Assembly (NCBI GenBank): GCA_963971425.1
Contig: OZ020514.1
Coordinates: 12,715,218-12,779,217 of the forward strand
Origin: Bryoerythrophyllum caledonicum
Lineage: Eukaryota > Streptophyta > Bryopsida > Pottiales > Pottiaceae
Length of the DNA stretch: 64,000 nucleotides
Direction of reading: 5' to 3'
The notes under the pieces are model-generated. The model saw nothing but the letters and a program-made list of their open reading frames with translations. It was not told the origin of the DNA and did no database searches. The position numbers and the translations under genes were made by a program. Each line of letters opens with the position of its first letter. The first letter of the stretch is position 1. This document shows positions 1,943 through 32,915 of this stretch, piece after piece.

Positions 1943-4900
1943 ATGGCTACCAAACCTTGGTCTCCTTGGTATATCGAAATCAGTGAAGTACAAGGTAGGA
2001 AGACCGACTCCGTCCGATGTAATCTTTGTCACCGCATTTTTGCAAGAAGGCTAGAACGACAGCTAAGTCATCTCGGGTACGAAGAACTCCCTGGCAAGCG
2101 CAATAGCGGTGTTGGCCTCTGCACCAAATTGACACCCCGCGTACACACTTTGTTTAAAAATTGTCGTGGCCACTACCCGAAACACAATGGAGAACTTTTC
2201 TCCGAACATTGCCCCACCCCACCATTGAAATCTGCGCCTGCCTCAGGATATAGCACGCCCAAGTCCACCGGTGAAGATTCTTGTGTAGGGTCCACTCAGG
2301 CCCCCCCCCATGATTTTACCATCAACCATGGTTGAACCGACCTCTACCTTCCACGACTTCACCAAACAAGGGAGTGTAGGTGCCACGTTCCCCAGATTGG
2401 TGAGGCAATCCGTGCTCGAAGAGGGCTTTCAAGAAGTGGAGCGGCGGGAGCTAGACAAAGTGTGGGCGAAGTTTTTCTACAAAGCAAACGTGCCGTTTGC
2501 TATAGCACGGAATGCTGCATTCAAGGAAGCCGTGATGAAGACTGCCTCTTTGAAAAAACCATATGTCCCACCCTCTTACCATGACATTCGAACAAGGTTG
2601 TTGGGACAAGCGAAGGCTGATTTGGAAGCACAACTCAATAAAAGACTGGTCGAAAGTGTTCGGAAGTTTGGAGGAACTCTAGCTATAGATGGGTGGACAT
2701 TTGTGACTAGTCGCCCTTTGTGCAATGCAGTGCTCGTGTCTCCCGCTGGAGAGCTCTTCTTGGGAGCTGTAGATACTACGGGCAATGAAAAGAACGCTGC
2801 GTACATGGCATCCATCATGATCAAGTTCATGGAACAAGTTGGCCCCCACAACATTGTTCAGGTGTGTACTGACAATGCTCCAGTCATGCTCAATGCCTCA
2901 GCATTGGTCGTCAAGAAATATCCACACATATACATTCAAGGATGTGCCGCGCATGCCATGGACTTATTGTTGGAGGACTGGGGGAAGGCTACATGGGTAA
3001 AAGAAACTCTCGAGAAGGCCAAGTTCTTGGTTAAGTTTGTCAAGAATCGGCAAATGCCCCTCGCCCTGTTTCATAAACACGAGGCGAAGTTCAGCCTATT
3101 GCTCCCCGGGCAAACAAGATTTGCATGTAATTTCATAATGATAGATCGCCTGCTGAAGGTGAAGGAATCATTGGAGCAAACCGTCGTTGATCCTGAATGG
3201 CCGGCATACGCCTCTAGGAAGTTACTCTCGACTAGAGATAAAGTAGTCATCTCTCGAGCCATCAAAAGAGTGGTTCTAGATGAGCGTTTCTGGGAGCGGT
3301 GCACGAACTTCTACGAGATGGTAGCCCCTGTAGTGTATGCGCTTCGGAAATTCGATGCCAAGGAACCTTGCATGCCCAAGGTTTTGCACATCCTTCGCAA
3401 CCTCGAGAAGCATGTCCTAGCGTTGCGTAATGAACCATTCTGTCTCGATAGCAATACAGCGTTCATTGCTGAGGACGAGTTCTACGCACGGAAACGGATG
3501 ATGACGACGGATTTACATTCCGCCGGTGCACTTCTCAATCCTTATTTACTACATGATGAAGAGTTGGCCGATGATCCGGATGCCATCACGGCATGCAAAC
3601 GAGTACTACAAAAGCTATGTGATCCTAAGATTTACCCGGACGTGGTGAACGAGTTCCTTGCATTTGGAAACAAGGATGTATCATTCCATGACATGTTGGA
3701 TCCTAAGGACCAAAAATGTTCTCCGTATGCTTGGTGGGATTTTGAAGGTGCTTGTGGAAAGCTCCTGGCACCAATTGCAAAGAGAATACTAGCGCAGACA
3801 GTGTCATCTTCTTCTTGCGAACGCAGTTGGAGTAGCTACTCTTTCGTCCACGACAAGAAACGGAATCGGTTATTACGGGGAAGGGCTGATGACTTGGTCT
3901 TTGTGTATACGAACTCGAAGTTGCTTGCGAATGCAAAGTTGACGGATGAGAAGAGGTGGTACGTGGAGAACTTGGATTTAGAGGATCCACAACCACGTGA
4001 GTCGGATGACCCGGACTACTCTGACGATTCAAGCACCGGTGCCCTTGCCAATTACGATGCAGAGCATCTAGACGATGACATCGACAGCAGTCCATCTCAA
4101 CGTATGGATCATACTCACGATGCCCCAATCACCGAGTATGATTTTGTCGTTGACGATGTTCTTGCAGAGAAAGAAGATGACTTGTTGCCCATAGCACGGT
4201 ACTTGAATGGAGACGGCATGGTCAATAGCAATAATATCCTTTGTCGTGGATCGACTCCGCTTCCGGAAGACACGAAAGACAAGGGAGGAGAAGATTTATC
4301 ATCCTCACGTGCAACAGCACTACACGGGCGAAAAACGCAAGGGTCCTCAGTGAAGAGTGTTGACGAAGGCGTCCACGGTCTCGCATTTGCGGACAACCGC
4401 GAGCAAACAACGAAAGAGCCAATTCTAGACGACACAGTTGTTCTTGGGGAGAAAACCATGGAGGGCGGTACTTACGGCGGTACACGGAGTCCCATTCACG
4501 TTACGGAAAAGAAAGCATCCTCCTCTAAGGATCGACCGTCCTTGCAAGCTCGCGCGTCGCAGTCTCTATTTGCAACCCCTCTTGCAACGGTCACTACAAC
4601 CAATTTGAAATCCTCCCACGGTTTGGTGTCCCTTTCAAAACATGTGCGACCCCGAACGCCGCAGCACCAATCCGATGGCCTACCTAGTGATGGCAATGTA
4701 CCTCTGTCTAAGCTCTTCATACATCACCCGGAGGTTCAAGGAGGTTTAGGGTTACAACCTAGGCGGCCTACAAACGACATGAGGAAACGTAAAGCTTCCA
4801 TGCATCCATTTCTTTGCACGCGACCTAGTAATCCCATTGATGTCATCGGAACTTGTAAGAGATTCAAACCCATTAAAACATTGTCGATGAGACGGAGAAT

Positions 4901-5006
4901 CAAACAAGAACCCGTCACGGATAATGAAGACCATCCTTCGGGATCTAGTGGAGCTGAAATCAAAGATGACAGTGATTACGAACTTCCTACCGACGTAAAT
5001 GAGTAG
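1943..5006 (+). CDS. hAT transposase with degenerate BED finger and long acidic tail (one frameshift)
   Basis: The ATG at 1943 opens a frame with a BED-like zinc finger (CNLC, then H and C in SHLGYEEL...GLC) ending at 2335. The main frame runs from about 2310 to 5006. The two overlap at a run of nine C at 2301-2309, so a one-base slip in that homopolymer, in the genome or the assembly, is the likely cause; an intron is less likely. In the main frame (898 residues) a DUF659/hAT core is visible: D of DGW near 127, D of CTDNAP at 188, CAAH near 212-215. A hAT dimerisation region follows (SSSSCERSWSSYSF near 497-510). Beyond about 560 a long acidic, low-complexity tail follows that is unusual for the family. 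It ends in basic stretches (RKRK) and a SUMO-type site, IKQEP, near 4898. The protein would cut and paste the element by binding its CAGGG ends in the nucleus. Confidence 0.85.
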
Positions 5007-9237: not shown

Positions 9238-11470
9238 TTAGTATATATGTAGAAGAATGGACATGGCATGTTGAATATCTATGGTGTTAATGTTTCTAAA
9301 GGAGGTTTTAATTGTTTCAATGGATATCTTGAAGGTATCTTCCAGAGCTTTCATACATGGGATGAATGTGGTGGCACGAGCGCCGGATATGATTACAATA
9401 AGGGGGTCGACATTCCATCCGAGGGCGATGATGTCGTCTATTAGGGGTTGGTATTTATCTTTTTTTTTTTGGATTGTTTCCGAGGAAAATCTATCGTTGC
9501 AACATGTGAATTCAATGAATTGAATGGTGTAGTCTTGGTTGATGTTACCGGCTGGTGGGTCATTATATGGTAAACCTTTCACACAAAGGATGTCCGGTTT
9601 GAGCCTAGCGTTACAATGACATCTTTGGGTCATACATGAGCATGGGAGTAGCCTTTTTGGGGACCGTATTTTTTTGAGGGTTGTTATTAAAAGTGCCGGC
9701 GTTCATTAGTATAAAACATCTCGATTTATTGTGAGAGGTGAGTAGTTTTCGGACTTCCCATACCGCTTTGTTATGTCTTTTGACAATTAGGGAGTGTATG
9801 TGGTGGTTTTGGCATTTGAGTAGAACATGTAGCCATGTGTCCGGGTTCGTTGAGGGGTATATGGGGCATGTTATGGATGGAAATCTTTCTATTCCAAAGA
9901 AGAGTTGTTTACGGGCGTTTCCCATGTATTGACCGGTACGGAATTTGATAAGGCATGTTATTTGTGAATCGGTGATGATGGGGTTTTTCCAAAAATTTGT
10001 AGAGAGTTCATTGTCTATGTCGTTGTTGTTAACCCACTTTTCTATGTTAGGAAAGTTGTCTGTGATTGTGTCAAGATTGTTATGTAGGTCTTGTTTTTTG
10101 AGGTATTTACTCATGAATCTAACCGGGCCTTTGTCGGGGGTGTCTTCATTGGAAGGCCAATCTTCTTTTCGGAAATAGTAAGGAGCGGCGTGGGCGTGTT
10201 CATGTGGGTCTTTGGCATTTTTATGTGGTTTTTCTCTTCCTTCTTTTGCAAGTTTATCCGCTTGTTCATCAATATTAGCATGGGCTCGGACTTTGTGGAG
10301 GGTTGTGATTTGTTCTCTTTTTAGTATCATTTGGACCATTGATTCTAGTATGATTCGGTCGGGGTGACTATTATGGAGGGTACAATGTGTTATTTGGGTG
10401 TTTAGTAAATATAGTGCGTTAATGCAATCTGTAAATATGTGCACCGGTTCATTGTTGTATTTTGTTGAGACGATTTCTAGTGTTTTATGGATGGCCCCTA
10501 TTTCTGCTCTAAGGATATTTTGCAGTCCATGTAGTCTTTTGGCTAGTTTGATTTCTTTCGTAGCGTTGTATATTCCATATTCGGCTTTTTCTGTGCGCCA
10601 AGATCCCAGGCTAATTTGTTCTGGCCGTTTGAAGGAGCCATCAGTATAGTAGCTATATACAGGTTAAATTTAGGTGGGATATTAGTTTGATACTCTGGGA
10701 GGGGTGGGGGTGATAGGATGTAGTTTAGTGTATGGTTATTGTAGTGTAGATTTGACCAATTTTTGATTCTGTTGACTGGTGTTTGCATCGGCGTTGGTGG
10801 GGCCAGTTTTGTGAGTATCCGGTGTATGTTTAGAGTCTTTGCTATGGAGGAGAGTTCTTGTAGTTGTTCTTGTGTGCCTAGAGATTGATTTTGGTGGTGG
10901 ATGCATATTATTTGTAGAGTGGATGATTCTATTCTGGGCTATTTTAGATCTAGTGGGATAGTGGGTTCGTCGTATGTTATTGCGTCCGCTTCGAATAGTG
11001 CAATGATGTGTGTGTCAGGGAAGGGGCCCGAGTGTGGGTTAGGATTTTGATACCGGTTTTTGTCAGGGATTATGATTAGGGTGGAGGTGTGATTTGGATC
11101 ATGTTTGGCCGCGAGGCGGGCCCAATGTAGTGCTTGTTGTGTATCTTCTTCATTGTGGGGGTGGGCCATACCATTACCTATCCATTTGTGGTCAAAGGCT
11201 TTACCTAGTGATCCGAATATTTTATCTCTTTCAAAGGGGGAGTAAAGTTTTTTTAGTTTGGTGGAGCATGTGAGGGGGGAGGAGAAGTATGAGTGTTGGA
11301 TGTTGAATGTGGAGATTAATGAGTTTAGTATAGGTGTGGGTAGTGTATCTACAAAACTACAATTCAAACTCATCTTGCCATTGCGGACCTTTATCGTTCT
11401 AGGATTCGAATTGGAGACTGCATAGAATTTCAATAGTGGACCAATTGAATTTGTAGTTTATGTGAAGGCG
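9238..11470 (-). mobile_element. LINE copy L1 with RNase H domain (3' part of ORF2, broken)
   Basis: The minus strand encodes, from right to left, an unrecognised domain (11433-10939; LHWARLAAKHDPNHTSTLII), then an RNase H domain (IFTDCINALYLLN; KVRAHANI; QADKLAKEGREK) and a C-terminal region with a CPIYPS / WLHVLLKCQNHH zinc-knuckle-like stretch. The D, H and D positions of RNase H are visible. Reading frames are broken in a few places (near 10540, 10900 and 9630). Two more copies lie at about 15830-16376 plus 30341-31178 and at 31179-32915. The reverse transcriptase is not visible here, so the copy looks truncated at its 5' end. Confidence 0.75.
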
Positions 11471-15829: not shown

Positions 15830-16376
15830 AAAGTTAAAGCAAGAAGAGAAACGTCGGTCCGCAAAGGGGCCGGCGTGAATAAAGAATTTGTTCGTTCCAT
15901 CACTAAGACCATGCCCACCAGACACCATGTCGGGGAGGGCTTGGTTTCTTTTCCATTTTGCGTTGGTGTAGTAGAATGGACATGGTCTGTTGAATGGCAA
16001 CAGTGTTAATAATATTGAAAGTGTGTGAAATTGTTTCGATGGAGATTTTAAAGGTATCTGAAAAGGAAATTTATAGATGGGATAAAGGTGGTGGCACGAG
16101 CATCGGCAGTGATTACAATAAGTGGGTCCATTTTCCATCCAAGGGCAATGATGTCATTAATAAGGGGTTGTTCGGTTGGTATTCATTTATTTTGTTTTCA
16201 ACTGTTTCCTGGGAGAATCTATCATTACAATATGTGAATTCGATGAATTGAATGGTATACTCTTGGTTAATGTGGTCGGGTGCAGGGTCGTTGTATGGTA
16301 GGCCCCGAATGCAAAGTATGTCGGCTTTGAGTCTAGCGTTACAAAGACAGCGCTAAATTACGCATGTGCATGGGAG
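15830..16376 (-). mobile_element. LINE copy L2, 3' portion (split by MULE E1)
   Basis: The minus-strand homology matches the C-terminal and 3' part of L1 (for example TTGAATTCATTGAATTCAC-like sequence near 16230). It stops at the E1 left end and resumes at 30341, so E1 inserted into this LINE. Confidence 0.7.
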
Positions 16377-16485
16377 GGGGAATGCTATCTTCCGAGCGGT
16401 GAGCGGTGCGACGTGAGCGGTGAGCGATGCGACGTGAGCGGTGAGTGGTGCGACGTGAGCAATGAGCGGTAAGGGGTAAAAACTT
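16377..16485. repeat. E1 left terminal inverted repeat with GCGGTGAG array
   Basis: The terminus GGGGAATGCTATCTTCC is followed by repeated GCGGTGAG and GCGACGTGAG words. The mirror image lies at 30213-30330, and a related end at 63081. Confidence 0.85.
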
Positions 16486-17195
16486 TGAAGTGCATTTACT
16501 TCAAAAATTATCCTTAAAGTGAATTAAAAGGGACCTCAAATCCTAGAATATCAGTATTAATTTGTTATCCTGAAGAGAAACAATTTAATTTTTATGAAAT
16601 GACTCAAAAAGAATCGATCAGATGGAACCCTTTATATGTGGCAATGTCCATTGTAAGAGGCCCAACGATGTACGCAAAATTTGAGTATTAGTTGACACCC
16701 GGCAAGACTCCTATGATATCCGTTCACAAAAGAGATTATCAGAGGAATATCAATGAGGAAAACATGAAAGAGTCTCAGAACTAAGAAGGCCAATAAGAAA
16801 TAATTCGGTCCTATGAAGATATAAAAAGATATTGGGGGATCATAGAAGTTCCAAAAATTGTAATAATGTGAGATAAAGAAAGAATAAGGGTGAGAGTGTA
16901 TAGGGTTGGCAAATAATGGGATGCCAACGGCATTCGAATTGGAGTCGTTTAAGTAAGAATCGTGGGAGGATGACGATTTTAGAATATAAGCAGAATACAA
17001 TAGTTCTCGAGAGGGAGGAGTCTAGGGGAATAATGCTGATGTTTCGAATATTGCGCGAGATTAGTTCCAACCGAAAGACGGGAAGAAAAATTTGAGAACC
17101 CAAGGAACAAAAATAATTTTTGAGGGATAATGCATTGAGATGCAAAGTGACCACGAAAGTTGTTGCGAAGATATAGTGTAGCACATCAAAATTCT
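16486..17195. other. E1 left non-coding arm
   Basis: AT-rich, with no coding pattern I trust. It holds the 3' flank of the methyltransferase gene. Confidence 0.4.
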
Positions 17196-20100
17196 TTAAA
17201 AGGAAGAGTTACAGTAACTATCCGGCGATGAAAGTAAAATGTCTGACTCCTCTCGTGCCTCGAGATCAAGAAAGTCAATAAAACTAAAGCTTGAACTAGA
17301 AGAAGTAGATGCAGACAAAGGAGAGACTACGTTGGCCATCTGGTTTGCTGTTTGGCCCGCATACGAAGGGAGCAAGAAGTCCCTTTCCGGTGAAGGTGCC
17401 AACGCCATCAAACTGAAACAGAATGAGACCGCACAAATTAAAATGGAAGACAGGAAATATGTGATGAAAAACTAAATGTTGTGACTTACTTACTCAAGCG
17501 GTTTCTCTTGGTGATCTTGCGGATTGGGGGATCTTCGTCAATGGTGAGGTCCACAGAGGCTGGCTGAACGGGAGTGGCTCGAGGAGGCTTTGGCATAAAA
17601 AGTGGCTTCAACACCGCCTCAAACACAGCCTTATCCGATTCGAATCCCACGAAATGCCGTCCAGCGGCGCGACAAGCTCGAAGGGAGTTTCCTAGAGGAT
17701 CAGACAAGCACAGAATTGTTCATAAAAACAATAGAAGCGAAGTCAAAGTAGGAAATTTGAGGCTAATAGATGGATAAACGATACCTGTAGATGCAAATGC
17801 ATCAAAGATCACAGCGCCTTGATTCGTGAGGGCCTCGAAAAGCATCTGGAAAAAGATGACGCCCTTCTCCCGTCCAGCCCTCCAAGGAACATTTCCGCGC
17901 ATAGTCTGGGAAGTGAGGTCGTTGTGATTGAGAAGGACGTCGGTCTCTTCAACTCCCCATCCAGTCTTTGACAGTTGAGCATTCACAATGTATGTGAAGG
18001 ACTCCATGCCTAGCGCGTTCCTCACGTAGAGGAGGATACGAAATCGGTGGGTCTCTAACGGAAAAGTCATTGGAAAGAATCAAAATTTAGTGAACTGAAA
18101 TTAAAATATGGAGCTCCGAATGAAGATAAATAATAACTTACCTTATTGGATGGATCAGATGGCAATGCTAGCGGTAGTTCGTTCACACCCCACCACTCAC
18201 GAAGTAACTTGAAATCGTAAGTGGCAGCGTATGACCGGATGTCTGTGCGGATGTGCACAGACTCTAGAATGATAACCATAATGCATCCCTTTTCAGAAAG
18301 AAATGAATCAGCAAATTCGAAGACAGCTTCAACAACGGGTTCAGAATAAATATTCCAAGAAGGAACATCTTTTGCATCCCTCGAAATAGAAGGGACCCAG
18401 AGGCCTTCCGGAATGTCCCCAAGAATTAGATCAAAACCACGGTGGGGACAGACTGCGCTGCGGGCCTGGTTCGATGTTGTAGGACACACTTGTAAAAACA
18501 ATAAATTCAGCATAAAATTACAAGAAGTATCTTGGAAAACAAAAACTGCATGCACCGAAACAGAGTTAGACTTTAATGTATAGATACTTTGCGGAGAGCC
18601 GACTGAGGCAGTATCTCATAAATTTCCATTTTCGTGTGGTTTAGGATGCAAACTTTGGCTGAAGCAAAAAAACTTAACGAACTGAAATTAGGACATCTAA
18701 TCAAAACTGAGGAGTCTGATTAGTCAATAGAACGGCAGAATGATATTGCCGCCAACGGCATTTCAAAAAGGTACGAACTGATATCATTAATTTCAGAAAA
18801 GAAGATGAAATGCAAAAATTGTAGCCTCAAAATAATGGAGAAACTTACCTTCAGCATGAACTCGTTGAGTCGTACCATACAAGGGTGGTCTTTTCCACCA
18901 TTCATCATATCCTAGAGAGATGAAAGCTCCACCCTGGTATCCATCTTGGGAGCTGACGCAGTCGGTGGAGAAAATGCGTCATGAAACGCCTTCTTTTTTA
19001 CCACATGGGATGATTGAGGGGGAGGGGATACCGGAATCTCTGGAGTGGGATCTACATCTGGAGAGCTTTCACCGGCAGCTTGGGTGGCGTCAGACGCGGG
19101 AACAACTGAGGGAATAACGGCCTCGAAATCAGTCTCGCGCGATGATGATCCACGAGTCTTCTTTGCGGAAGCTTTGCCCTTACCCCTTGCTTTAGTTGTT
19201 GCAGAAGCCATTTGAGCACTGCTCTCCACTCCAATTACCTCAGGTTGAATGCCGTCTCGCAGTGAGATGTCAAAATGAGGCGGACTCTGAACTGGGCAGT
19301 CTAGATACCAGCCGCAGCGATCCAGTGCTGAGGACCCCAATCAAACTTGATTCCCTCAGAGATCATCGTGGAAGGGCTCTTGGGATCTAGGTAGGACGCA
19401 AAGAAGGGAGGACTGCGGGTTACGGCTTTTGCGGGCATCAAAATGTACTTAAAGTACCGGTATAACGTACGCCGCAGTGCCGAAGTAAACCCACATTGAT
19501 CCAAAGGTTCATAGTTCTTGTGAACGCCTTTGTCCACGTTGAACTCCCGATAGAATGTTGTTTCCCAAAGTTGAATCCGAAGTTCCTCAATGTAGTCCGC
19601 AATTTGTGTGATGGGCTCGCCAATATCAGGGTCGTAATTGACTTCCACCCCAATATCCGACAGTGAACCTTCCAACAGGCGCTCGGCTTCGATAGACAGC
19701 TGCAAAATAGTTTTAACCACAGAATGACTACAAGGTTTCATAGAAATATCTTAAAGCTATAGTTTATGTAGAATGCATACCTGTGCCCACCAAGTTGCTC
19801 GGTGAAGCCACTCAGGGAACTCACTGTCCGGGAACTTCGACTTCGGGAACCTGAGAGATTCACGAAGATTTCCATCTCTATTCCATCGTTGCAGCCACTT
19901 CACTTTCATCAATGGATCCATGGCGGATGTCGCGAGCATACAAAGCTTCTCCTGAGTCATCTCAGCGTCGTCCTCATGAGCTTCGTAATGTATTTTCACT
20001 TGCCCGAGGAACGCGGGCGTGTGCTTGGGATCCGCAATTGGAAGCTGCTTTCGTAGCTCTGAAAGGGTGGATAACTTCATTTTCTCAACGGCCTTTCTGA

Positions 20101-22730
20101 CGAAGTCTTGCGCATTTGATGAAGTCCACTCTGTCGGATCTGAGAATTTCTCAGCGAATTTCCTTTGCGCCACCGCTGCAGCTTCTCCGATCTCTTGCTG
20201 TAATTATTTCACAAAAGTTAGAGAGACAAACATTAAGACTAATGTAGCAGAACTTTATGGACAAGCACAGTCAAATTCATGGAGAATGAAGTATCGGATA
20301 AGGGAGTGCCGCTGCCGGCACACTACAAATGATAATGAACATTGAAAGTCAAGGATGTCTGAAGAAATCGAAAATACAACGGACTATCATTCTCCGAATA
20401 CAGTAAATGAGTACCTGCTGAAGTAGATCATTAAGTCGTAATTACTCCAGTGCGCACATTTACGATGCGCCGTGGCTCTACAGAATTCTATACACGTTCC
20501 AGATAGCTGAAACATGGAAGCGAGAGAAGCCGTTTCCGGCAGACAACTAAAGCGTCGCCCTAATTGACAAATGAGAACTGACGACGAGGATTATTTTGTG
20601 TGATGTAGCGACGGCTAATCGGCCTCAATGGCAGCGGCAGAGCAATTAGTGCCATTATTTGGAATGACAACCTTGAGCAGTAGAAGGTGCGCCGCTGCTG
20701 GCATACCCCTCACAGACTCTCCTGTCGTCCACATTTTAGATTGTGAAAGAAACAACACTGATCATGTCCAATCAAGAGTATAGTGCGAGTAAGGGAGCAG
20801 AAAGGTCTGCCGGTAGCGGCATACCATCACAGAGCAAAGAATTGAAGACTTCACATGGCGCTGTGAAGGTCTCTTGCTTCCGCTACAGTAAACAAATCTT
20901 CCAATCGCCTACCTCAAGTCGAAAATCATTATCTCCTGCTCACGACTTCGAGCAAAATTTGAGTGAATTCCAAAGGTGTAGAGGTGTGCCGTTGGCGGCA
21001 CACCCCCCAGCGCCCAAGTCATGACACGAGATTGGTGCGAATATGTACACATACGAACCAATCTCGTGTTGCAGCGTACGCGCTGGAAGGTGTGCCGCTG
21101 GCGGCACACCCCCCAGCGCCCAAGTCATGACACGAGATTGGTGCGAATATGTACACATACGAACCAATCTCGTGTTGCAGCGTACGCGCTGGAAGGTGTG
21201 CCGCTGGCGGCTCACCCCCCAGCGCCCAAGTCGTGACACGAGATTGGTGCTTATTAGCTAGTATACGCACCAATCTCGTGTCCCAGCGTACGCGCTGGGG
21301 GGTGTGCCGCTAACGGCACACCTCTTGTTATTGTATAAGCATTGTTAGAGAGCGAGTACGACAACACATAAATACATGTCGCTGCAACGGGCTGTAGGTT
21401 GGTTGGTGTGCAGGTAGTGGCAAATTAGTCCCAAATTCACAACTCACAGTATTGTTGTGCCGTAGGATTCAAGCAATCAATCTCATGTAGTCGCTTTACT
21501 CTATTCTAATACATGAGCCTAGCAGAATATCTAATGCTTTCTGCGGTGGAGGTCTGCCGCCAGCGGCATACCTCCTCTCCGAAGTAGATATGGGAAAGGC
21601 CAGGCACATATACTGACTTCCAAGTATACACATCTAAGAAAACAAACTATTTTGAGGTCTGTACTATGAATCAAAAGTCAGTTAAAGGACAAACCTGGTA
21701 AAGGACGGAGTTCAAAGACTTTAAAGTCAGCGTGTACCACGTCCGCTTGACGGAGTTCTGCTTCGCTTCCGCAGCATTAATCTCTGCTTTCGATACGAGT
21801 TTTTCGAAGTAGTTCAGAGGCTGACCAGCCATTCCTTGTATACGGTAGAGCTTGTGCACAAGATTGGTCGTCACAAATGACTTCTGGTTTCGCCTGAACA
21901 GTAAGGATATTTAGACATAAGAAATCATAATCATTATGGATCGAAACATTCAGAGGTTCTAAAGTCGTGGATTCATACCAATTAACTTGATGAAGCGCGG
22001 AAAGAAGAACCGGAACATATCCATTAACATTAAGTAGGATGGATTCAACAACATAATGCCAGCTCTGGTCATCTCCATGGTCTCGGTTTATAATAGGCAG
22101 CCATGCCTACAGCCGATGGTTGCCATCCCACACATGGAACATCATATTCGAAAAGACTCTCAAGTCCGGATCCGCCTTTAAACGCGACTCGAATGCCTCG
22201 TTAGCTGAAATCCACGCAGGACTCCAACTCTTCATGATATCCTCTGAGACTTCAACGGTTTTCCCTTCGTGATTTTCTGTCGCTACATAGAACACACTTG
22301 AACCTTCCATGTAGCCGTTCTTTAGAAAATGCGAGCCAAGCTCCATTACATCGTTCTTCAGGTGAGGTCTCACAATGGGCAGCCCAATCATCCGACAAAG
22401 AGGAATGCTAATCTTCGACTTCTCTTTGGGCTGATATCGAAGACCGTCTAAAACTGCAGTCGTGTTCACGGTCTCTTGTAGGACAAGGTCATCCATCTGC
22501 TTCTCCAAATCCTCGGCTGATAGTGGATTTGAAGGATTTTCTACTGGTCTTTGGACATCAGCAATATCATCACTCTCCGCCCCATCTTCATCCAGATCCA
22601 ACGGGTCTGCACTTTCTGCAGTTACAAAATTGTAAGTGATAAATGCAAAACTCCACTGATAATTAGAGAGCTCCGACGGAAAAATACCTGATGGCTGCAC
22701 TGTAGAATTCAAGGAATATATTGTCTCCAT
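17196..22730 (-). CDS. ParB-fold domain joined to a beta-class N4/N6 DNA methyltransferase (about nine exons, one in-frame stop)
   Basis: Read from ATG 22730 leftwards. Exon 1 ends at a GT near 22687, and exon 2 starts after CTGCAG at 22619. Exon 2 holds a ParB/sulfiredoxin-like motif WDGNHR (22113-22133), followed by an in-frame TAG at 22107 and then AWLPIINRD in the same frame. Further exons with consensus borders lie at about 21899-21696, 20206-19782, 19701-19300, 19290-18915, 18906-18848, 18491-18131 and 18059-17790, then 17695-17483 and perhaps 17417-17196. The segment near 18400-18440 reads FDLILGDIPEG, at the position of the DPPY catalytic motif. FDAFAST, split by an intron from GNS, then GRHFVGFESD, match the C-terminal motif I of N6_N4_Mtase enzymes (FxGxG). 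Catalytic motif before SAM motif is the beta-class order. ParB-methylase fusions are known in bacteria and phages; here the gene is intron-bearing. KARGKGKASAKKTRG is a likely nuclear/DNA tether, and VDLTIDED resembles a SUMO-interacting motif. DIPE in place of DPPY casts doubt on activity. Confidence 0.7.
20306..21572. repeat. E1 palindromes, cluster 1 (eight copies)
   Basis: The arms GGTGTGCCG and CGGCACACC, separated by four variable bases, occur at 20306 (shorter arms), 20686, 20804, 20983, 21089, 21195, 21301 and 21551. All lie in one non-coding interval, an intron, of the methyltransferase gene. The loop varies (CTGC, GTAG, TTGG, CTGG, CTAA, CCAG) while the arms are kept. Confidence 0.85.
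20983..21322. repeat. 106-bp tandem repeat, three units plus, each with two hairpins
   Basis: Palindrome starts at 20983, 21089, 21195 and 21301 are exactly 106 bases apart. Each unit also holds a longer inverted repeat, ACACGAGATTGGT ... ACCAATCTCGTGT. The third unit has a different loop between those arms, yet the arms are intact. Confidence 0.85.
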
Positions 22731-23307
22731 CTCAGTATGACGTTCCTCTCCTCGTCATGACACATCAGATTTGGCTCTCCAATTCTAAAAATGCAGTAGA
22801 GATCATTAGAGGGACATGATTGGGAATGTGCGCATCAGATGAACGGAGCTCTAATGTGCGATATTATCAATGCGAACTTCCTCAAGACAGGTGTGATAGA
22901 TTAAATCTGAAAAGATATGATATCCCATTCAGATAACAGCTCATCTTCCAAATTATGGATCTACAATAGATTAAGCCTATTCTAAAAAATACCTCTAAAT
23001 TCGGAGTATAGCAAGCCAATTCAAGATTTGGTTCAGGGTGAGAGCCGACATAGTATAACAGTAGGCAGTTTGCTGAGCTACCGATTCACTCAAGCATCAT
23101 TTGTGAACGTGATCCAAGACGGCAGCACAATAATGAACTGGGTGGAGATAGATGGAATATAACTAACATCAAGACTCAATCACCTAATTCAGCACGAATC
23201 ACTTTTATGGCAGTCACATAAATGAGCTCCAATCCGAGAAGACATGCACGAGTTTGGGCGAATCAACCGTATGTATGAGCCCGACTCCGAGAAGAGGTGC
23301 ACAGGAA

Positions 23308-23460
23308 GGTGTGCCGGTGGCGGCACACCCTCCAACATCAGTCCCGGGAAGTCCAAGATGGTGTTGACGATCATTTCATTGTGGCGACACCAACTCCGCC
23401 CAAAACACAGGCTCATCAGAAGATATCCTTTCGCGGAAGGTGTGCCGCCACCGGCACACC
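23308..23460. repeat. E1 palindromes, cluster 2 (two copies)
   Basis: GGTGTGCCG / CGGCACACC pairs at 23308-23329 (loop GTGG) and 23439-23460 (loop CCAC), in the divergent spacer. Both are followed by CTCC. Confidence 0.85.
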
Positions 23461-23519
23461 CTCCACAAGGTCCTTGTTTACAGACAGGGATATGACTAAC
23501 GCAGTGCCGAACCCTATGG

Positions 23520-23705
23520 CGACAAACATGATGGCCATAATCCATAAGCGCTATAACCTTGGTCGACATAACCTAAGGCGCCATAACCACGGGTTCCATA
23601 ACCTTAGGCACCATAACCGAAAGCGCCAAAATCTACGGTTACATAACCTTCGGCGCCATCACCCTTCGACGCCATAGCCTAAGGCGCCAAACCCTACGGC
23701 CCAAG
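23520..23705. repeat. short minisatellite (CCATAACC / GGCGCC words)
   Basis: CCATAACC and GGCGCCA alternate about every 15 bases for some 180 bases, with much drift. It is rich in the palindrome GGCGCC. Confidence 0.6.
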
Positions 23706-25357
23706 AATTTTATTTCCGATGGAATGTATGACACGATTAATAAGCAAACCGCTTACAACAATCCTATACTCAATTATAACGCAAAAAGCACGATGATTTC
23801 ATACCTCGAGATCGCGGAGTCGTTGATGCTTCTCCCCCACCCATCGTCGAGGGTCCGGCGACTACTACCGCTAGCACTTCACTGTCTTCTTTTCACAGTT
23901 GATCTAGAAGTCAGATTGACCTCACAGTGCAGTGAAGTTGAAAATATCGCAACGGATTACAGAACTTGTATGCTCTAAACCCTACCGCAACCCACAACTC
24001 TCTAATCAGGCAGTAAAGCAAGCGGAGTTTGTACCTTTGCTGGCCTGTCCCAGAAATGCTTCGCCGCCATCCATCTTAGACGATATGGCGATCACTCCCG
24101 CGCGCTGATGACTGTCTCCTGCACACCCGAAAGTATACTAGGTCAGATAGTACTCACAGTGTATCTGCACTCGACGCCCGACGTCTAACACACTTCCTGG
24201 GAAGATACATCAGACGGCATGATATCAAACCCGCCGCACGCATCAGAGACAACTTAAACCTTAAGAGACTGTAGTCCGGATTCGGGATCACTTCTCTGAA
24301 CAATATAGCTGCGCTAAACAAGAATTCAGATAATCACAACCTACCTCTTCACTCTCTGAGAAATTCACCATGTGCTATCAATCACGATTGTTTCATTACC
24401 CTGAAATTAATTTTAATCACGATTGACTACAAACCCTAAATCAAAGTGTCCACATCTCTCAAGTACTCGAGCAAGCGCTCAATTCTCTCAGTGCATGCTC
24501 AACATCGGTCCCCTCGCCGATATCATCAGCAGCTGAATCATTGGTTCCCTTTTGGAAATGACCACTTACGACATAGCCTTCTGAAATTCCAGCTAGCACA
24601 GAACTTCTCTCCCTATCATCGACAATGTCAGCATCAAAGTCTAGTCTTTTGGATGTTCAAGATAGGAATCCTTAGACTTCCCATTGCACTTCCTCTCACG
24701 GATCTACTTCTCATCAGTGTTTTTCGATCACTAAAATAGAGCTTCTGCTTACGTCTTTTCATAACAACCAGAAAGACATCGGCAAAAAGTGACCTCACTA
24801 GTCCATGTCAAAAGGATACATATAGTTGCCTTTCTGGAATAGGCATATCTGGGTCCAGTATGGATGACTCCATTAACCTTGGTGACTATTTCCTAATTAA
24901 CTACACCGTCCAGTACTTCATTCTGTTCATTAGTCTGTACCCCCATGTTGGCGCCGGCCCCTGCCAGCATAAATGACTAGAACTGCCATAGCCATTCTGA
25001 ATAACATTTATGGGGCTTCAATGTGGCAAAACCTCCAGATACTCTTTCGTACTGCCACCAAAATTGGGAGTATATCGTCAATTCCAATCAAAATTCTATA
25101 ATCATAAATCGTATGTACCAAACTAGGATATTGTACTCATTTACTAAAATAATTCCACCTGACAATATATTTTGGTGCACTGCAATCGAACTTGACAGCT
25201 ACAGTGATTTTATAGCACAATCCCCAATTAATCTTCCAATCGCATTAATTCAGCACACAGCAGGCTTTGAACATGCCATGATACACCTTCCTGCCAGTTC
25301 GAGGACCCCTTGTTTCTTTTTGTTTCTCATAATTCGCTGGTTTGTTCTTTGATTAGA

Positions 25358-28300
25358 ATGGCTTCGCTGGCGGATCATTTGGAGGGATCCGTCGTAATCC
25401 GTGGTGATAGTGCATTTGTCCCGATCTGTTTCTCTACTGATTCGGAGGGAGTTGCGACTGTTAGTTCCCTTCAATTATGTCAGCGATTCCATATCATTGA
25501 GGGGTCCTTGAATGTTGAGAAAGAGGAATTTGATGAGTTTTCGGGAGAGCTCTCATACACAATTGCACAGTCATCTTGTATTCGCAACAACGCAGTAGTC
25601 TGGTCACTTCGGTGTGGGAAGTAGAGAGTGTATGGTTCTAAGGATAGTCTAGACGATTCCCCATCAGTTTCCCTAACACCCAAGTTGTCTACTACTGCTA
25701 GCCAGGTGACACCTTTGATGCAGAAAGTGAAATTAGAACCGGATTTGAACTTCATTCACATCCTGAGCGATGACTCCGACAGTGATCGTCCTGGTTACGG
25801 ACCACCTGAATCGGAGAAGCAATCATCACTTCCGGCCGCGGCTCCGGCCACGGGTGCCAGTTTTCCTCCGCCTTCAAACTTCAAGCCCAGGGAGAATCCT
25901 AATCCTGTTAAGTCTTCTAGTACCATCGACTGTCTACATAATCTTCGGTCTAGATCTAGATCCAAATCTGTTCTAACTAAGATAGATTTTAATTCCATTA
26001 GAGTTGAGAAGGTTGACTTTCTTCCAGCAGTTTTTAATGGAGATGTCCTCTTCGAGCTTCCACCCTTGGGGATAGGAAATCCTTCTTCTCAAGCTGGGTC
26101 TCTCTTTGGTATGGATAAGAAACATGACGGACATAGTTGGACAAGAACCGTTACCACTCACATTGCCAATGATTCTAACCTCACCTTCAGGACATCTTCT
26201 TGTTTGGGACATTTACAATGTCTTAATCCTCAATGCGAATACTTGGAGCGTAAGCATAGAGCGTCTAACGTAAATGAGACGGAGTGGGAGGGCACGTCGT
26301 CAACGGTATTTGGGGTCGGCGGGACTACTCCACCTGGTTCAACAGTGGTCTGCAGACTTTGCCGAGTACAGCCTACCTGCTTGACAACTTGCCATGCAAA
26401 AATTTACTATGTTCTGGGTAAGGACACCATGTCACGTTTATGTGTCCATATGGGAACACATGTGCATCCTGTAAAACTAGGCAACTGTCGAGATTCATCC
26501 ACGAAGCTGAAGACTCTCATTTCGGAGCAAGTTGAACGGACACCAACAGCTACAAACTCTGCCATTATTTTAGAAGCAAGTAAAGAGTTTCTAGGTGAGC
26601 TACTGCTGTGTCCGGAGGGAGTGTCACAGAAGCCGCTTGCCTTGGACGAATTGGTTCCGGTGCTAGAGAAATTTAAGCAAATGACATCCCCTAGTATCCG
26701 TAACGAGGTTACAACTTTTAGATATTTGCGCCGCTTTGGTATAATGGATAGCATTACTAAACTTCGGGGATCAAGCAACTGGGCATTTGTACAAGAGAAT
26801 AGATTTCCGGGCCAAGGCGCCGATTCGGACAAGGTGTTCGTGTTTAAGATGGCGGAAGTTGGTCCAGGCAGCGGCGTCGACCTTGTGAAGCGAATGCAAC
26901 CTGGAGGGGACCTTGAGGATTCCTGGATCATGTTTGATCATGTCAAACGAGTCAAGGGATGGACCACGATGGGGTGTCATGTGTACGACTCAACCTACTA
27001 CCGTGTGATGACAATCGCCGTATGTGACATGCAATCCGAAGACGTCAAAGCTCAGCTAGTATTTTGGAAGAACCTAAATGCAGTTGCTGCATGACACGAT
27101 GTACCGACAGTTTCATTCAAGGGATTTATGGCTGATAGCGCACAGGCCAACTGGAATGCAGTCCGTATTCTTTACGGGAGCGGTGATGCTTCGGTTCCGA
27201 TGGAGAATCGGGAGAGAACGTGCCTTTTTCACTGGACTCAATCCCTTGAAAAGCATACGAAGGCTCACATTAGAGCCGACCTTCAAGAACAACATCGTCA
27301 GCTTTGCAAGCTATACAAAGACGCCAAGACAATGGAAGAAGCCGAAGCAAAGTACTTGGCTATCAAAGCGTGGTGGTTATCGTCGGGCGCAACATCTGAT
27401 GCTGGTGCCGTACGTCTTGATTTGTGGCTTGCCTTCTGGCATTTCCGGTATCGTCAATGGGGTGGATTTATGGTATCGGTATGTCTCTACTTTATTCATT
27501 CCATAAAGCTTTTATATTTGACGAATTCCTTTTCATCGAATTTTCAGTTTTTGACAAATTTGGGCACCAGAATAACGGCAGTCTGGATATTGTTGTCTGA
27601 AAAGGAGTGCCGTTAGCGGCACACCCTTGCTCTATAGACCATGATAGTGAGGACAAGATTATATTTTGGGGGTGTGCCGTCAACGGCACACCGTTTTCTT
27701 GTGGTTCAAAAACCTTCAGTAGGCTTCTTGATGACATGCCTTCTGGTTTGGGCACTCCCGGATTCTACGATTTAACCGCCTCATGAGGCGCACCATTGTT
27801 CTCTGCCGTTAGCGGCAGAATAGATTGGGCAAGTTCACTGCGTCAGATTTCTTTCTTCACAAATATTGCGCCGTCTTCTTTTCGTTCTTCTGGAATTTGA
27901 TTTAATCAGTCCACCTTTGTCTTTTTCACTTGCAGTTGGATGTGCCGTTGACGGCACACCTTCCTTTGGTTTACCTCAACTATTGCAATGTACTACTTAA
28001 TGGAAACCGTTTAATTCTTTTAGACGGGACCTGAATATTGGTTTTACTTCTTTATACGTAGTCTTCCCTTGTTGTCTCGCTCTTCTCGATTGATCTAATT
28101 CTCTATTTTTTGCTAATTTTTACAAGTTATTTGATCATTCATTTTTGATTGACGTATGCAAGAACTTTCCGAATCTGAATTGGCTGAAATGCCATCTTGC
28201 AATTTAGCGGAGACTGTCCACAACAAGTGGTTGCAACAGTCTGGAAAACGTGGAAATGATCTATACGTTGCCACTGTCGATGACACGGTTCGTGCATTCA

Positions 28301-29610
28301 TGCAAGTCGTGGCTTGTTATCAATACTCTAAAGGTGAGCGAGGAGGGCAAGGGCCTGGGAAGGAAGAGCTTCGACTTCGTGCTGCGCATCGGATTGCTCA
28401 ACGTTCAGGGAACTCAAAATCACTTCATGAGGCTTTCTGTAACATGCCTGGAGCTGCTGAGTTTTGCACTCGCCCTCCGCATTTGGAAGGAGGGGAAGTC
28501 TTTATGTCCCTGAAACGGAAGCCTGACCTTCCTCCAGGATCTGAGTTTGATTCTCATCGTCCAGACAAGATTAGCGTTTCACGTCCTAGGGTCGCGACAA
28601 GGGCGTCTTCACGAATTACCGTGGACCTTACCACTGATGATTCTGTGTATTCAATAGTTGCGGAAGCTCCAACAAATCTCGCCAATACCCCTACACCAGG
28701 AACATCACCAAGGGTAACCTGTAATATGGGTGTGTTGGAGACTGCCTGTGACGAGAGCAAGTGGCATATTGCTAGGCTTCCGAGGACATCAGCAAAAGCC
28801 TGTTTTGCCCAACAGGTTGGTACGTAGAAGAAGTGTATTGCTCGAATTGTACAGAACAACAAGAGTACTGCCGCACCAACTTACACTGGTATGATGAAGA
28901 ACTATAAGAAGACGCGGCTTGATAAGATGCAGTTTTTCTTCTATAACGATGACATCAATCGCTGTGTGATGGGATCAAAAAGGGACTGGGTAATTTTCAA
29001 GCCAGCGGTCCCTGACGTTTGGCCGGTGAAAGCTGGCACGTCCCTTACGAAGGCCGAGATTCTACAACTCGGAAATGCAGGTTTTCGACTCGCGGAACGC
29101 TTAATGCTCTCTCCCCGGAAGTTGTTCTCTCATGATGGTGCAATATTTGACCTGAAATCTGTTCCAACTCCGGTGAACTCAAATGAGCACCCGAAACGGA
29201 GATTCGGCAAGAACGTCCGCCGGAATCCGAAGGCCCCAACCACAAGACATCGGAACACCTGCGCATCCGCGCTTTCGGTTCTTGGAAAAGTCAGTAACCT
29301 TCTTATGCTCCCTGACCCTGCCTTTGGCTGCATTCTCTCGTTCGAGTCCAAATCCATAACTAAGGTTTCAAACTACATGATCTCTATCAGTCAATTTCCT
29401 AGTTGTGACTGCCTGTCTTTCAAGGAGATGTCCAGCAAGTCTCTTGGTAGACGTCCTCAGTGGTGTTACTGCAAACTCCTTTATTTTATCTTCACCATTA
29501 TTTGTGAGCTAGATCCGGAGGTGAATGTCTTCATGCACGCCCCTAGTTTTAGCTTCAACGAGATTAAGCGCGTTCTCGAAGTCTTGCTTCAGAAAGAGGG
29601 TTGCACCTAG
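25358..29610 (+). pseudogene. MULE transposase with zinc finger and SWIM-like end (three in-frame stops)
   Basis: The start ATG at 25358 gives MASLADHLEG. One frame continues through in-frame TAG (25622) and TGA (27092) to about 27475. An intron of roughly 680 bases follows, then a second exon from about 28157 to 29610 with an in-frame TAG at 28825. A SUMO-type site VKLEPD (about 25727) and an acidic HILSDDSDSD come first. Then a Cys/His-rich region (CLGHLQCLNPQC, CRLC) like the DNA-binding fingers of MULE proteins. The catalytic region has DSTYYRVMTIAVCD (about 26985-27040), GFMADSAQANWN (27122-27158) and ERTCLFHW. VDLTTDDS in exon 2 resembles a SUMO-interacting motif. The end has CDCLSF...WCYCK like a SWIM finger, with L where His is usual. 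The family fits the 10-bp target duplication of E1. Confidence 0.8.
27604..27960. repeat. E1 palindromes, cluster 3 (four copies)
   Basis: Copies at 27604 (loop TTAG), 27671 (loop TCAA), 27802 (short, TCTGCCG/CGGCAGA) and 27939 (loop TTGA), all inside the intron of the transposase gene. The loops are A/T-rich here, unlike those in the methyltransferase gene. Confidence 0.85.
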
Positions 29611-29734
29611 TGACCCCAAACCCGAAGTATCCCTTGTACCTATTTTCTATAATATATATGAGACGGTGAGACAACAGGGCCACCGCTGTATTGGCAATAA
29701 TTTGAAGTGTTTTAGAATCGCTCAATGTTTTTTT

Positions 29735-29960
29735 GAGATTTTTTTTTTCACTTTTTTTTCTAGAGGCTTTTTTTTTCGTTTTTTTCCTCTTTTTTTTTTT
29801 TTTTTTTCCCCCCGGGATAGGAGTCGTTCCTGCAATTGCCTACTATCGCCTATCTCGTCAAGTATAAGATTTTACAAGGAATCGAACCCTAGACCTCATT
29901 GTTCTTGATATCTGACATTTTCCCCGGGGTAGTTTATGGTCGTCTCGGACCGGCGTTGAA
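29735..29960 (-). mobile_element. possible SINE (tRNA-type B box and A-rich tail)
   Basis: On the minus strand GGGTTCGATTCC (29880-29891) matches a pol III B box. About 70 bases downstream a long A-rich tract follows (T-rich on plus, 29735-29812). I cannot place a convincing A box, so this is tentative. Confidence 0.35.
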
Positions 29961-30212
29961 GTATGGACCTCAAACACTTTTTGAAGGACCATAAACCCTG
30001 TTTTAGGTCCACGGTCATTTCCGGGAAATTGTCGTGCCCTATTTTCGGTCATAAGGCCCTCTTGGAATCCTTATTTCATATTTTGTTCCCTAATATAATG
30101 TTCGGTTCTTGTAGTTCAATTACTATCGTATAGAAAAAAAGTTACTTTCGTATAGTCAAAAAGTTACTTCCATACAGTAAAAAAGTGACAATTTTAAGAA
30201 ACTTTTTACAAA

Positions 30213-30330
30213 CTTTTTTCTTACCGCTCACCGGTCACCGCTCACGTCTCACCGCTCATGTCGCACCGCTCACCGCTCATGCCTCACCGCTCACCGCTCA
30301 CGCCTCACCGCACGCAAGATAGCTTCGCCC
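30213..30330. repeat. E1 right terminal inverted repeat with GCGGTGAG array
   Basis: CTCACCGC words in tandem end in AAGATAGCTTCGCCC, the inverted counterpart of the left end, followed by the duplication TGCATGGGAG at 30331-30340. Confidence 0.85.
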
Positions 30331-30340
30331 TGCATGGGAG

Positions 30341-31178
30341 TCGGGAGTAGCCAAGGGGGGACCGTATTTCCTTCTGGGTTGTAACTTGCTATTAAAGGTG
30401 CCGGCATTCATGAGGATAAATCATCGTGATTTGTTATGCGAGGTAAATAGTTATCGAATTTCCCGTACTGCTTTGTTATGTCTTGTGACAATTAAGGAGT
30501 GTATGTGATGGTTTTGGCATTCTCAGTAGAATATGGAGTGATTTGTCGGGGTCTGAGGAAGTGCATATGGGGCATGTTACATATGGGAATTTTTCTATTC
30601 CAAATAAGAGTTGTTTTCGGGCGTTTCCCACATGTCGGCTATTACGGAATTTGGTGACGCGTGTTATTTGTGAGTTCTTGATGATTGTATTTTTCCAAGA
30701 ATTCGTAGAGAGTTCATAGTCTATTTTGTTGTTGCCAACCCATTATTCTATATTAGGGAAGTTTTCTTTGATTGTGTCAAGGTTGTTATAGAGGTCTTGT
30801 TTCTTGAGATATTTGTTCAAGAATAAAACCGGAAGCTTAACGGGGGTATCCTCTTTAGGGGGCCAATCTTCTTTTTGGAAGTAGTATGGGGTAGCATGTG
30901 GATGTTCGTATGAGTCTTTGGCATTTTCATGCGTTTTTTTGCGGACCTCTTTTCCAAGTTTATTTGCTTGTTCGTTTCCATCGATATTTGCTTGAGCAGA
31001 ACTTTGTGAAGGGTTGTTTTATGTGTTCAGTTTTCTAACATGTGGACCAACAACATTAAAATAGTTTGGTCGAGATGGCTATTGTAGAAGATAGGGTTTG
31101 TTATTTGGATGTTTAGTAGATAAAGTGCATTGATACAGTCAATGAATATGTGTGCGGGTTTGTTGTTATATTTTGTAT
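30341..31178 (-). mobile_element. LINE copy L2, RNase H portion (right of E1)
   Basis: The minus-strand homology continues L2 from the other side of E1 and ends in the RNase H region (HIFIDCINALYLLN) at about 31178, where it meets L3 head to head. Frames are broken in several places. Confidence 0.7.
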
Positions 31179-32915
31179 GGCGAAGAGAAAAAGCCGGATA
31201 TGGAATATACAACGCTACGAAAGAAATCAAACTAGCCAAAAGACTACATGGACTGCAAAATATCCTTAGAGCAAAAATAGGGGCCATCCATAAAACACTA
31301 GAAATCGTCTCAACAAAATACAACAATGAACTGGTGCACATATTTACAAATTGCATTAACGCACTATACTTACTAAACACCCAAATAACACATCGTACCC
31401 TCCATATTAGTCACCCCGACCAAATCATACAAGAATCAATGGTCCAAATGATACTAAAACGAGGACAAATCACAACCCTCCACAAGGTCCGAGCCCATGC
31501 TAATATCGATGGCAATGATCAAGCGGATAAACTTGCAAAAGAAGGAAGAGAAAAACCACATAAAAATGCCAAAGACCCACATGAACATGCCCAAGCCAGT
31601 CCTTCCTATTTCCAAAAAGAAGATTGGCCCTCCAAAGAAGACACCCCCGATAAAGGCCCGGTTAGATTCCTGAGTAAATATCTCAAAAACCAAGACCTAC
31701 ACAACAATCTTGACACAATCGCAGACAATTTTCCTAACATAGAAAAGTGGATTAACAACAATGACGTAGACAATGAACTCTCTACAAATTTTTGGAAAAA
31801 CCCCATCATCACCGATTCACAAATAACATGCCTTATCAAATTCCGTACCGGTCAATACATGGGAAACACCCGCAAACAACTCTTCTTTGGAATAGAAAGA
31901 TTTCCATCCATAACATGCCCCATATGCCCCTCAATGGACCCGGACACATGGCTACATGTTCTACTCAAATGCCAAAACCACCACATACACTCCCTAATTG
32001 TCAAAAGACATGACAAAGCGATATGGGAAGTCCGAAAACTACTCACCTCTCACAATAAATCGAGATGTTTTATACTAATGAATGCCGGCACTTTTAACAA
32101 CAATCCACAAGAAAATACAGTCCCCCCTTGGCTACTCCCATGCTCATGTATGACCCAAAGATGTCATTGCAACGCTAGGCTCAAACCGGACATTGTTTGT
32201 GTTAAAGGTTTACCATATAATGACCCACCACCCAATAACATCAACCAAGACTACACCATTCAATTCATTGAATTCACATATTGTAACGATAGATTTTCCC
32301 CGGAAACAATCCAAAATAAAATAAATAAATACCAACCCCTTATTGAAGACATCATCGCCCTCGGATGGAATGTCGACCTCCTTATTGTAATCGCATCCAG
32401 CGCTCGTGCCACCAACTTTATCTCATCTATGAAAACTCTAGAAGCCACCTTCAAGATACCCATTGAAACAATTAAAACTTCTCCTTTAAAAACATTAACA
32501 CAATAGCTATTCAACATGCCATGTCCATTCTTCTACATAATCGCAAAATTGAAAACAACGAAGCCCTCCCCGATACACATGACCCCCATGCATGTTCTTT
32601 TCCCGCCTTGATTTATCATGACTAGTTGGTTTTGAGGCTTTTGACTACTTCCTTGATTGATGGTTCGTTCGACCAAAACTCCTTCTGAGACTGGCATTCT
32701 TCTTCTGTTGGTTGGTTCGTTGGCTAGTTGCTTCGTTTATGATTCGTTGGTCGGTTGATTGGTTTGTGGTTCTCTGGCTACTTGTTAAATAGTGTCTATC
32801 CTCGAGAGAGGGGAGTAGTTCGAGCTTACTAATTCCTTGTCCTGTGGGCATGGTCTTACTAGTGGAACGAACAGACACTTTATTCACGCCGGCCTCCTTT
32901 GGAGACCGGCGTTCT
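31179..32915 (+). mobile_element. LINE copy L3, RNase H to 3' end, mostly intact frame
   Basis: An open frame to 32506 carries RNase H (HIFTNCINALYLLN; KVRAHANIDGNDQADKLAKEGR), a C-terminal knuckle (CPICPS; WLHVLLKCQNHH) and a basic end. Its 3' flank resembles that of L2 up to about 32580 and again at about 32835-32915; the 250 bases between (GGTTGGTTCGTTGG-type) are extra. The frame is the best preserved of the three copies. The first catalytic Asp of RNase H appears as Asn (TNCINAL), so this copy would not be active. Confidence 0.75.

Follow-up and report, generated by a model that had tools for sequence, protein, structure and literature searches.

In a 64-kb window of Bryoerythrophyllum caledonicum DNA (the whole stretch analysed, 64,000 nucleotides; assembly GCA_963971425.1, contig OZ020514.1, positions 12,715,218 to 12,779,217 of the forward strand), we found a transposon that is a decayed copy of a two-gene, Mutator-like element (MULE)-type transposon with divergent genes. 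One gene encodes a putative MULE-like transposase, and the other, an intron-bearing accessory gene, ends in a bacterial-type, methylase-like domain. The element also carries a gapped palindrome, GCCGNNNNCGGC, of which the window holds 15 copies, all 15 of them inside the element although it makes up 22% of the window. All counts and all statements of restriction to the element refer to this one window and to one element copy.

The element and its insertion site

The boundaries of the element and its gene order are established. The element is a DNA transposon of 13,954 bp (16377-30330) inserted in a copy of a long interspersed nuclear element (LINE), and it is flanked by a 10-bp duplication, TGCATGGGAG, identical at 10 of 10 positions. 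Self-comparison of the window revealed that the LINE copy is split, with 15841-16376 and 30343-31176 matching adjoining parts of other LINE copies. When joined, the two flanks gave a continuous alignment to two other LINE copies (75.5% over 1287 columns and 75.0% over 1249 columns). The termini of the element are inverted (81% over 94 bp by self-comparison), contain 21-bp units and end in GGG..GCTATCTT, in inverted orientation. Target-site duplications of MULEs are 8-11 bp long, and the perfect 10-bp duplication, together with the terminal inverted repeats, fits this group. The inverted repeats at 9246-10600 and 31178-32539 were considered as long element ends and rejected, as they are LINE copies; the copy at 9.2-10.6 kb carries an RNase H domain.

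The transposase gene lies on the plus strand (25358-29610), apparently with one intron, and is broken by three in-frame stops (Table 1). By eye we recognized CLFH after MADSAQANW, NLAETVHNKWL and a CDC...CYC finger, which we take to be hallmarks of MULE transposases; these motifs suggest that the product is MULE-like. Structure prediction of the transposase core from the single sequence gave a mean pLDDT (predicted local distance difference test) of 37.3.

The accessory gene and its lesions

The accessory gene runs on the minus strand from an ATG at 22730 to a TAA at 17488-17486. We infer seven introns with GT-AG borders, between 72 and 1497 bp long, and a product of about 981 amino acids, and the frame is kept across all seven junctions of the final model. 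At the exon 5/6 and exon 6/7 junctions, the AG acceptors of this model avoid frameshifts that others would bring, and with them the lesion near 18.9 kb is a nonsense codon. The gene is broken by two nonsense codons (TAG 22109-22107 and TAG 18914-18912) and an apparent frameshift near 19312, and this copy is unable to make the whole accessory protein. A codon-usage model trained on the element's own transposase was judged against the final gene model. The model frame scored best in nine of ten exon segments, the exception being exon 1, of 43 nt; among the nine, the segment at the end of exon 5 contains the TAG. In five non-coding control stretches, every frame scored below zero.

An earlier note on this DNA had proposed that a gene with introns and a bacterial-type DNA methyltransferase part lies beside a MULE transposase, and the frames, the codon usage and the C-terminal PF01555 match described below agree with it. 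The peptides that it quoted (WDGNHR, FDLILGDIPEG, FDAFAST-GNS and GRHFVGFESD) are present on the minus strand and, by the evidence of reading frames and codon usage, belong to one gene and not to different ones. Its placement of the gene between transposon ends now has exact ends and a 10-bp duplication. The span that it gave, 17196-22730, is right for the gene (22730-17486), whereas 17196-17485 falls outside because the start is at 22730 and the stop at 17488-17486. It was silent on the gene being broken.

Domains of the accessory protein

Two GT-AG introns separate the exons that encode FDLILGDIPEG, FDAFAST-GNS and GRHFVGFESD (18465-18142, 18052-17785 and 17691-17486). Removal of these introns places the peptides in one frame, and the C-terminal 265 amino acids form an uninterrupted reading frame. 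This C-terminus matched PF01555 at 3.5e-6 (27.6 bits, above the cutoff of 26.7), and a slightly different C-terminal construct matched at 2.4e-6, also above cutoff. The methylase end further matched PHROG 3008 (9.8e-7), PADLOC MTase_II (3e-7) and, in the PDB, DpnA (2.4e-4); NCBIfam matches were far under their cutoffs (best 1.9e-4, 21.2 of 244 bits). The best library matches sit in the C-terminal half, around motif I, where the S-adenosylmethionine (SAM) motif I region of the beta-class PF01555 family was found. The Pfam signal is confined to about 50 residues, and none of 1000 shuffles reached the PF01555 score of the motif-I half. Judged by profile similarity, which exceeds chance in the C-terminal half only, this C-terminus represents the SAM-binding half of a bacterial-type N4/N6 DNA methylase.

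No relative was confirmed by pattern scans of IMG/VR and GTDB contigs, and no close relative was confirmed when phages were searched with exon 2. When the methylase end served as query in a tblastn search of phages, 206 records were hit, and in none of them did the match extend over 80% of the query; among the matches listed (40 of 206), each begins at query residue 109 or beyond.

For the N-terminal part, we built our own ParB profile from 21 bacterial ParB domains and YbdM (22 sequences). Against a 993-residue version of the model, its sole reported match fell on MMFHVWDGNHRL (WDGNHRL) at -1.0 bits. Two of 1000 shuffles scored as high as the 148-residue region containing this signal, and the same number as high as the second part of that region alone; with a 37-residue stretch removed, a cut chosen post hoc, the count was one in 1000. 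HHalign gave a ParB probability of 3.4%, yet this was above all 200 shuffles. The single-sequence structure prediction of exon 2 had a mean pLDDT of 39.6. We raised the prior for ParB because published transposon relatives have the same layout. With a single short motif and published precedent behind it, the ParB assignment is suggestive only.

Palindromes of the element

Within the window, the palindromes are restricted to the element. None of the 15 lies in an exon of the model: eight are in accessory intron 3, one in accessory intron 5, two in the spacer and four in the transposase intron. Their consensus is TGCCG-NYRN-CGGCA, and those at 20528 and 21199 have one mismatch each, outside the GCCGN4CGGC core. 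Allowing up to one mismatch to TGCCGNNNNCGGCA, we found 16 matches against 0.91 expected, one of which (11818) is outside the element. Four palindromes lie within a 106-bp tandem array (20982-21322) and the number of independent sites is therefore about 12. The same array in intron 3 contains, by eye, a further inverted repeat, ACACGAGATTGGT...ACCAATCTCGTGT.

We counted every gapped palindrome with 4+4 arms and a spacer of 0-10. GCCGN4CGGC ranked first in the element with 15 copies; in 100 dinucleotide shuffles, no such palindrome occurred more than 6 times. The top counts in four further 14-kb stretches, of which two overlap, were 4, 12 (T runs), 6 and 9, all for other sequences. Outside a core of about 22 bp, the flanks of 12 sites showed near chance identity (means 28% and 26%), so the palindromes are not copies of a longer repeat. 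The central two bases are pyrimidine-purine in 14 of the 15 and CG in none; a deamination origin of this step was set aside because the observed/expected CpG ratio of the element is 0.88. No palindrome lies closer than about 2.4 kb to either end of the element. That palindromes occur in introns of both genes argues that the two genes form one element. Separately, the divergent spacer holds a degenerate 15-bp array, GCCATAACCTAAGGC, at 23534-23693, a second candidate regulatory target.

Table 1. Features of the element, in window coordinates
Feature	Position	Strand	Details
Left target-site duplication	16367-16376	.	TGCATGGGAG, in LINE copy
Left terminal inverted repeat	16377-16487	.	21-bp tandem units (GAGCGGTGAGCGGTGCGACGT)
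Accessory exon 8	17486-17691	-	Remainder of SAM motif I (GNSLRACRAAGRHFVGFESD); stop TAA
Accessory exon 7	17785-18052	-	Start of SAM motif I (FDAFAST)
Accessory exon 6	18142-18465	-	Motif-IV region, FDLILGDIPEG
Palindrome, accessory intron 5	18747-18760	.	TGCCGNNNNCGGCA
Accessory exon 5	18849-19699	-	Apparent frameshift near 19312 (or unrecognised intron); in-frame TAG 18914-18912
Accessory exon 4	19781-20197	-	
Eight palindromes, accessory intron 3	20307-21568		First bases 20307, 20528, 20808, 20987, 21093, 21199, 21305, 21555
Accessory exon 3	21695-21893	-	
Accessory exon 2	21979-22615	-	ParB-like motif MMFHVWDGNHRL; in-frame TAG 22109-22107
Accessory exon 1	22688-22730	-	ATG at 22730; 43 nt
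Two palindromes, spacer between divergent genes	23312-23456	.	
15-bp tandem array, divergent spacer	23534-23693	.	GCCATAACCTAAGGC; 10.6 copies, 65% matches
Transposase, first part	25358-27472	+	CLFH motif; in-frame stops 25622-25624 and 27092-27094
Four palindromes, transposase intron	27608-27956	.	27608, 27675, 27804, 27943
Transposase, second part	28163-29610	+	In-frame stop 28825-28827; NLAETVHNKWL; SWIM-like CDC...CYC
Right terminal inverted repeat	30209-30330	.	21-bp units of left repeat in inverted orientation; 81% over 94 bp
Right target-site duplication	30331-30340	.	TGCATGGGAG; 10/10 identical to left

Other features of the window

Directly upstream of the LINE RNase H open reading frame (ORF) at 9611-10663, and on the same strand, an ORF at 10939-11457 (minus strand) matched PCIF1_WW (PF12237) at 3.4e-8, above cutoff. 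PCIF1 belongs to a family of cap m6A (N6-methyladenosine) methylases. This LINE lineage may carry a PCIF1-like domain, or two elements may abut here. A hAT-like transposase ORF of 905 amino acids without internal stop lies at 2289-5006 on the plus strand (DUF659 3.1e-35, hAT dimerisation 1.1e-10). The ORF at 45218-45844 (minus strand) matched DUF7869 at 1e-31 and possibly marks another mobile element. A run of undetermined bases at about 37.9-38.1 kb gives X in translations.

Comparison with known systems

The closest layout is that of Sola1-1_Ec32 of Ectocarpus, in which a gene for a 1104-residue protein with ParB-like and N4/N6 methyltransferase domains lies opposite the transposase; its authors proposed that the accessory protein binds and modifies its own transposon (PMC12477816). 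They also report similar ParB-methyltransferase proteins in green and red algal transposons, citing Iyer 2011 and Petroll 2025, which by that citation would be the same kind of accessory protein as ours. By description, the element studied here shares with Sola1-1_Ec32 a large DNA transposon and, on the strand opposite to the transposase, an accessory gene for about 1000 amino acids with an N4/N6 methyltransferase-like C-terminus. It differs in its carrier (MULE-like here, Sola1 there, compared by description only), in a ParB-like domain that is reported there and suggestive only here, in the motif DIPE, and in the candidate target palindrome that can be named here.

A second comparison is with VANC21, which binds a motif that recurs in the non-coding DNA of its own MULE, VANDAL21 of Arabidopsis, both within introns and in intergenic and terminal parts; in introns the motifs form tandem repeats (PMC5735166). 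The present element likewise has a MULE accessory gene and a motif that is repeated in its non-coding DNA, confined to it within the window and partly arranged as an intronic tandem repeat. However, no Pfam match to the VANC domains DUF1985 and DUF287 was found in the accessory protein, and for that reason it cannot be counted as a VANC; whereas VANC21 binds its motif, the accessory protein would putatively bind the palindromes.

A ParB-like N-terminus with a DNA methylase is also known from Bacillus Bce_0392 (PMC5512222) and from the met genes of Wolbachia prophages (PMC3089641), whereas the gene described here is eukaryotic and intron-bearing. DNMT retrotransposons (PMC5890265), DIRS elements with a methyltransferase (PMC3266345) and TET/JBP DNA transposons of fungi (PMC12730594) likewise carry methyltransferases or DNA-modifying enzymes, of other families and on other carriers. 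A connection with the N4-methylcytosine methyltransferases of Marchantia was also considered. The earlier note knew of no MULE of this kind. Among the open-licence papers listed in our searches we found none with a ParB-methylase-type gene either, but the accessory gene type itself has been described in other transposons (PMC12477816). What is new here is the MULE-like carrier and the element-confined palindromes.

Possible role of the accessory protein

We favour, at about even chances, a two-gene MULE-like element whose accessory protein bound to the palindromes that the element itself carries and acted on the element's DNA. The protein of about 981 amino acids, with a possible ParB-like N-terminal domain and a C-terminal SAM-binding methylase half, would have bound the repeated palindromes in the introns and spacer, and the bound protein would have altered the chromatin of the element or the methylation of its DNA. 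As an outcome, element genes may have been kept expressed, or element copies told apart from host DNA. Such a role would be like that of VANC in the VANDAL MULEs of Arabidopsis, with a methylase-like protein replacing VANC. A more far-reaching version is unlikely in its entirety: a complete self-marking system in which a ParB-like/amino-methylase protein and some 15 palindromes of its own (TGCCGNNNNCGGCA) set up an N4-methylcytosine/N6-methyladenine (4mC/6mA) or anti-silencing state on the element's own copies, the system having arisen independently of VANC and its protein type being common to transposon superfamilies.

Several observations weigh against the favoured reading. Both genes of this copy are broken, and the accessory gene is known from this single decayed copy. 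A Pfam profile search of the transposase gave nothing credible, and at its splice junction none of nine donor/acceptor pairs was both GT-AG and frame-open. The whole 981-residue spliced protein scored 25.0 bits with PF01555, below the 26.7 cutoff. The N4/N6 methylase of the earlier note, and the profile search that it suggested, held for the C-terminal half (2.4e-6 and 3.5e-6) but not for the whole protein, and a DPPY-type motif was not confirmed. Its ParB-fold domain was overstated: besides the -1.0 bits of our profile and the low HHalign probability, no ParB match was found in Pfam (including PF02195), PHROG, NCBIfam, PDB or PADLOC, the first part of the 148-residue region alone was equalled by 63 of 1000 shuffles, and ParB identity is not statistically established by these comparisons. 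The ParB fold, DNA binding, its target and methylation are what we infer, as is the tie between palindromes and accessory protein.

Further points against it concern catalysis. The catalytic motif IV of beta-class N4/N6 methylases has the pattern [DNS]PP[YFW], and here the tetrapeptide is DIPE instead of DPPY, within an otherwise open 265-residue C-terminus; methylase activity is therefore doubtful. FDLILGDIPEG aligns to the DPPY motif only under forced global alignment, and the best profile match of the motif-IV half covers 4 residues away from motif IV at -1.8 bits, a score equalled by 32 of 1000 shuffles. These data suit an accessory protein whose methylase fold is inactive and which acts by binding element DNA, VANC-like or as a transposition factor. 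We consider this somewhat unlikely, since DIPE may be private to one decayed copy and the SAM-site half is well preserved. That the C-terminal similarity is a chance motif, in a gene that is no methylase relative, is very improbable: the short Pfam signal, the whole-protein score just under cutoff and the low NCBIfam score would fit it, but three libraries gave 2.4e-6 to 3e-7, DpnA matched, and no shuffle reached the observed score.

The tie to the palindromes is a separate matter. They could be unrelated to the accessory protein and serve as transposase targets or as hairpins in splicing or replication, or represent a small repeat that was amplified. Their presence in the transposase intron and the local amplification seen in the 106-bp array make this quite possible, though we lean against it given the near chance identity of the flanks and the distance of the closest site from the element end. 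A methylase gene of host or horizontal origin might instead have been captured as a chance passenger, in the manner of Pack-MULEs; MULEs are known for gene capture, according to literature abstracts and to reference 49 of PMC12477816. This is improbable, as the palindromes are found in the spacer as well as in the introns of each gene, and genes of this kind have been reported from other transposons (PMC12477816). Because the accessory gene shares its codon usage with the transposase and both have palindromes in their introns, we favour a single-element unit.

Taken together, the two-gene element adds a MULE-like carrier to the transposons known to bear ParB-methylase-like genes. With the palindrome as a concrete candidate recognition target, the published proposal that such proteins bind and modify their own transposon becomes directly testable.

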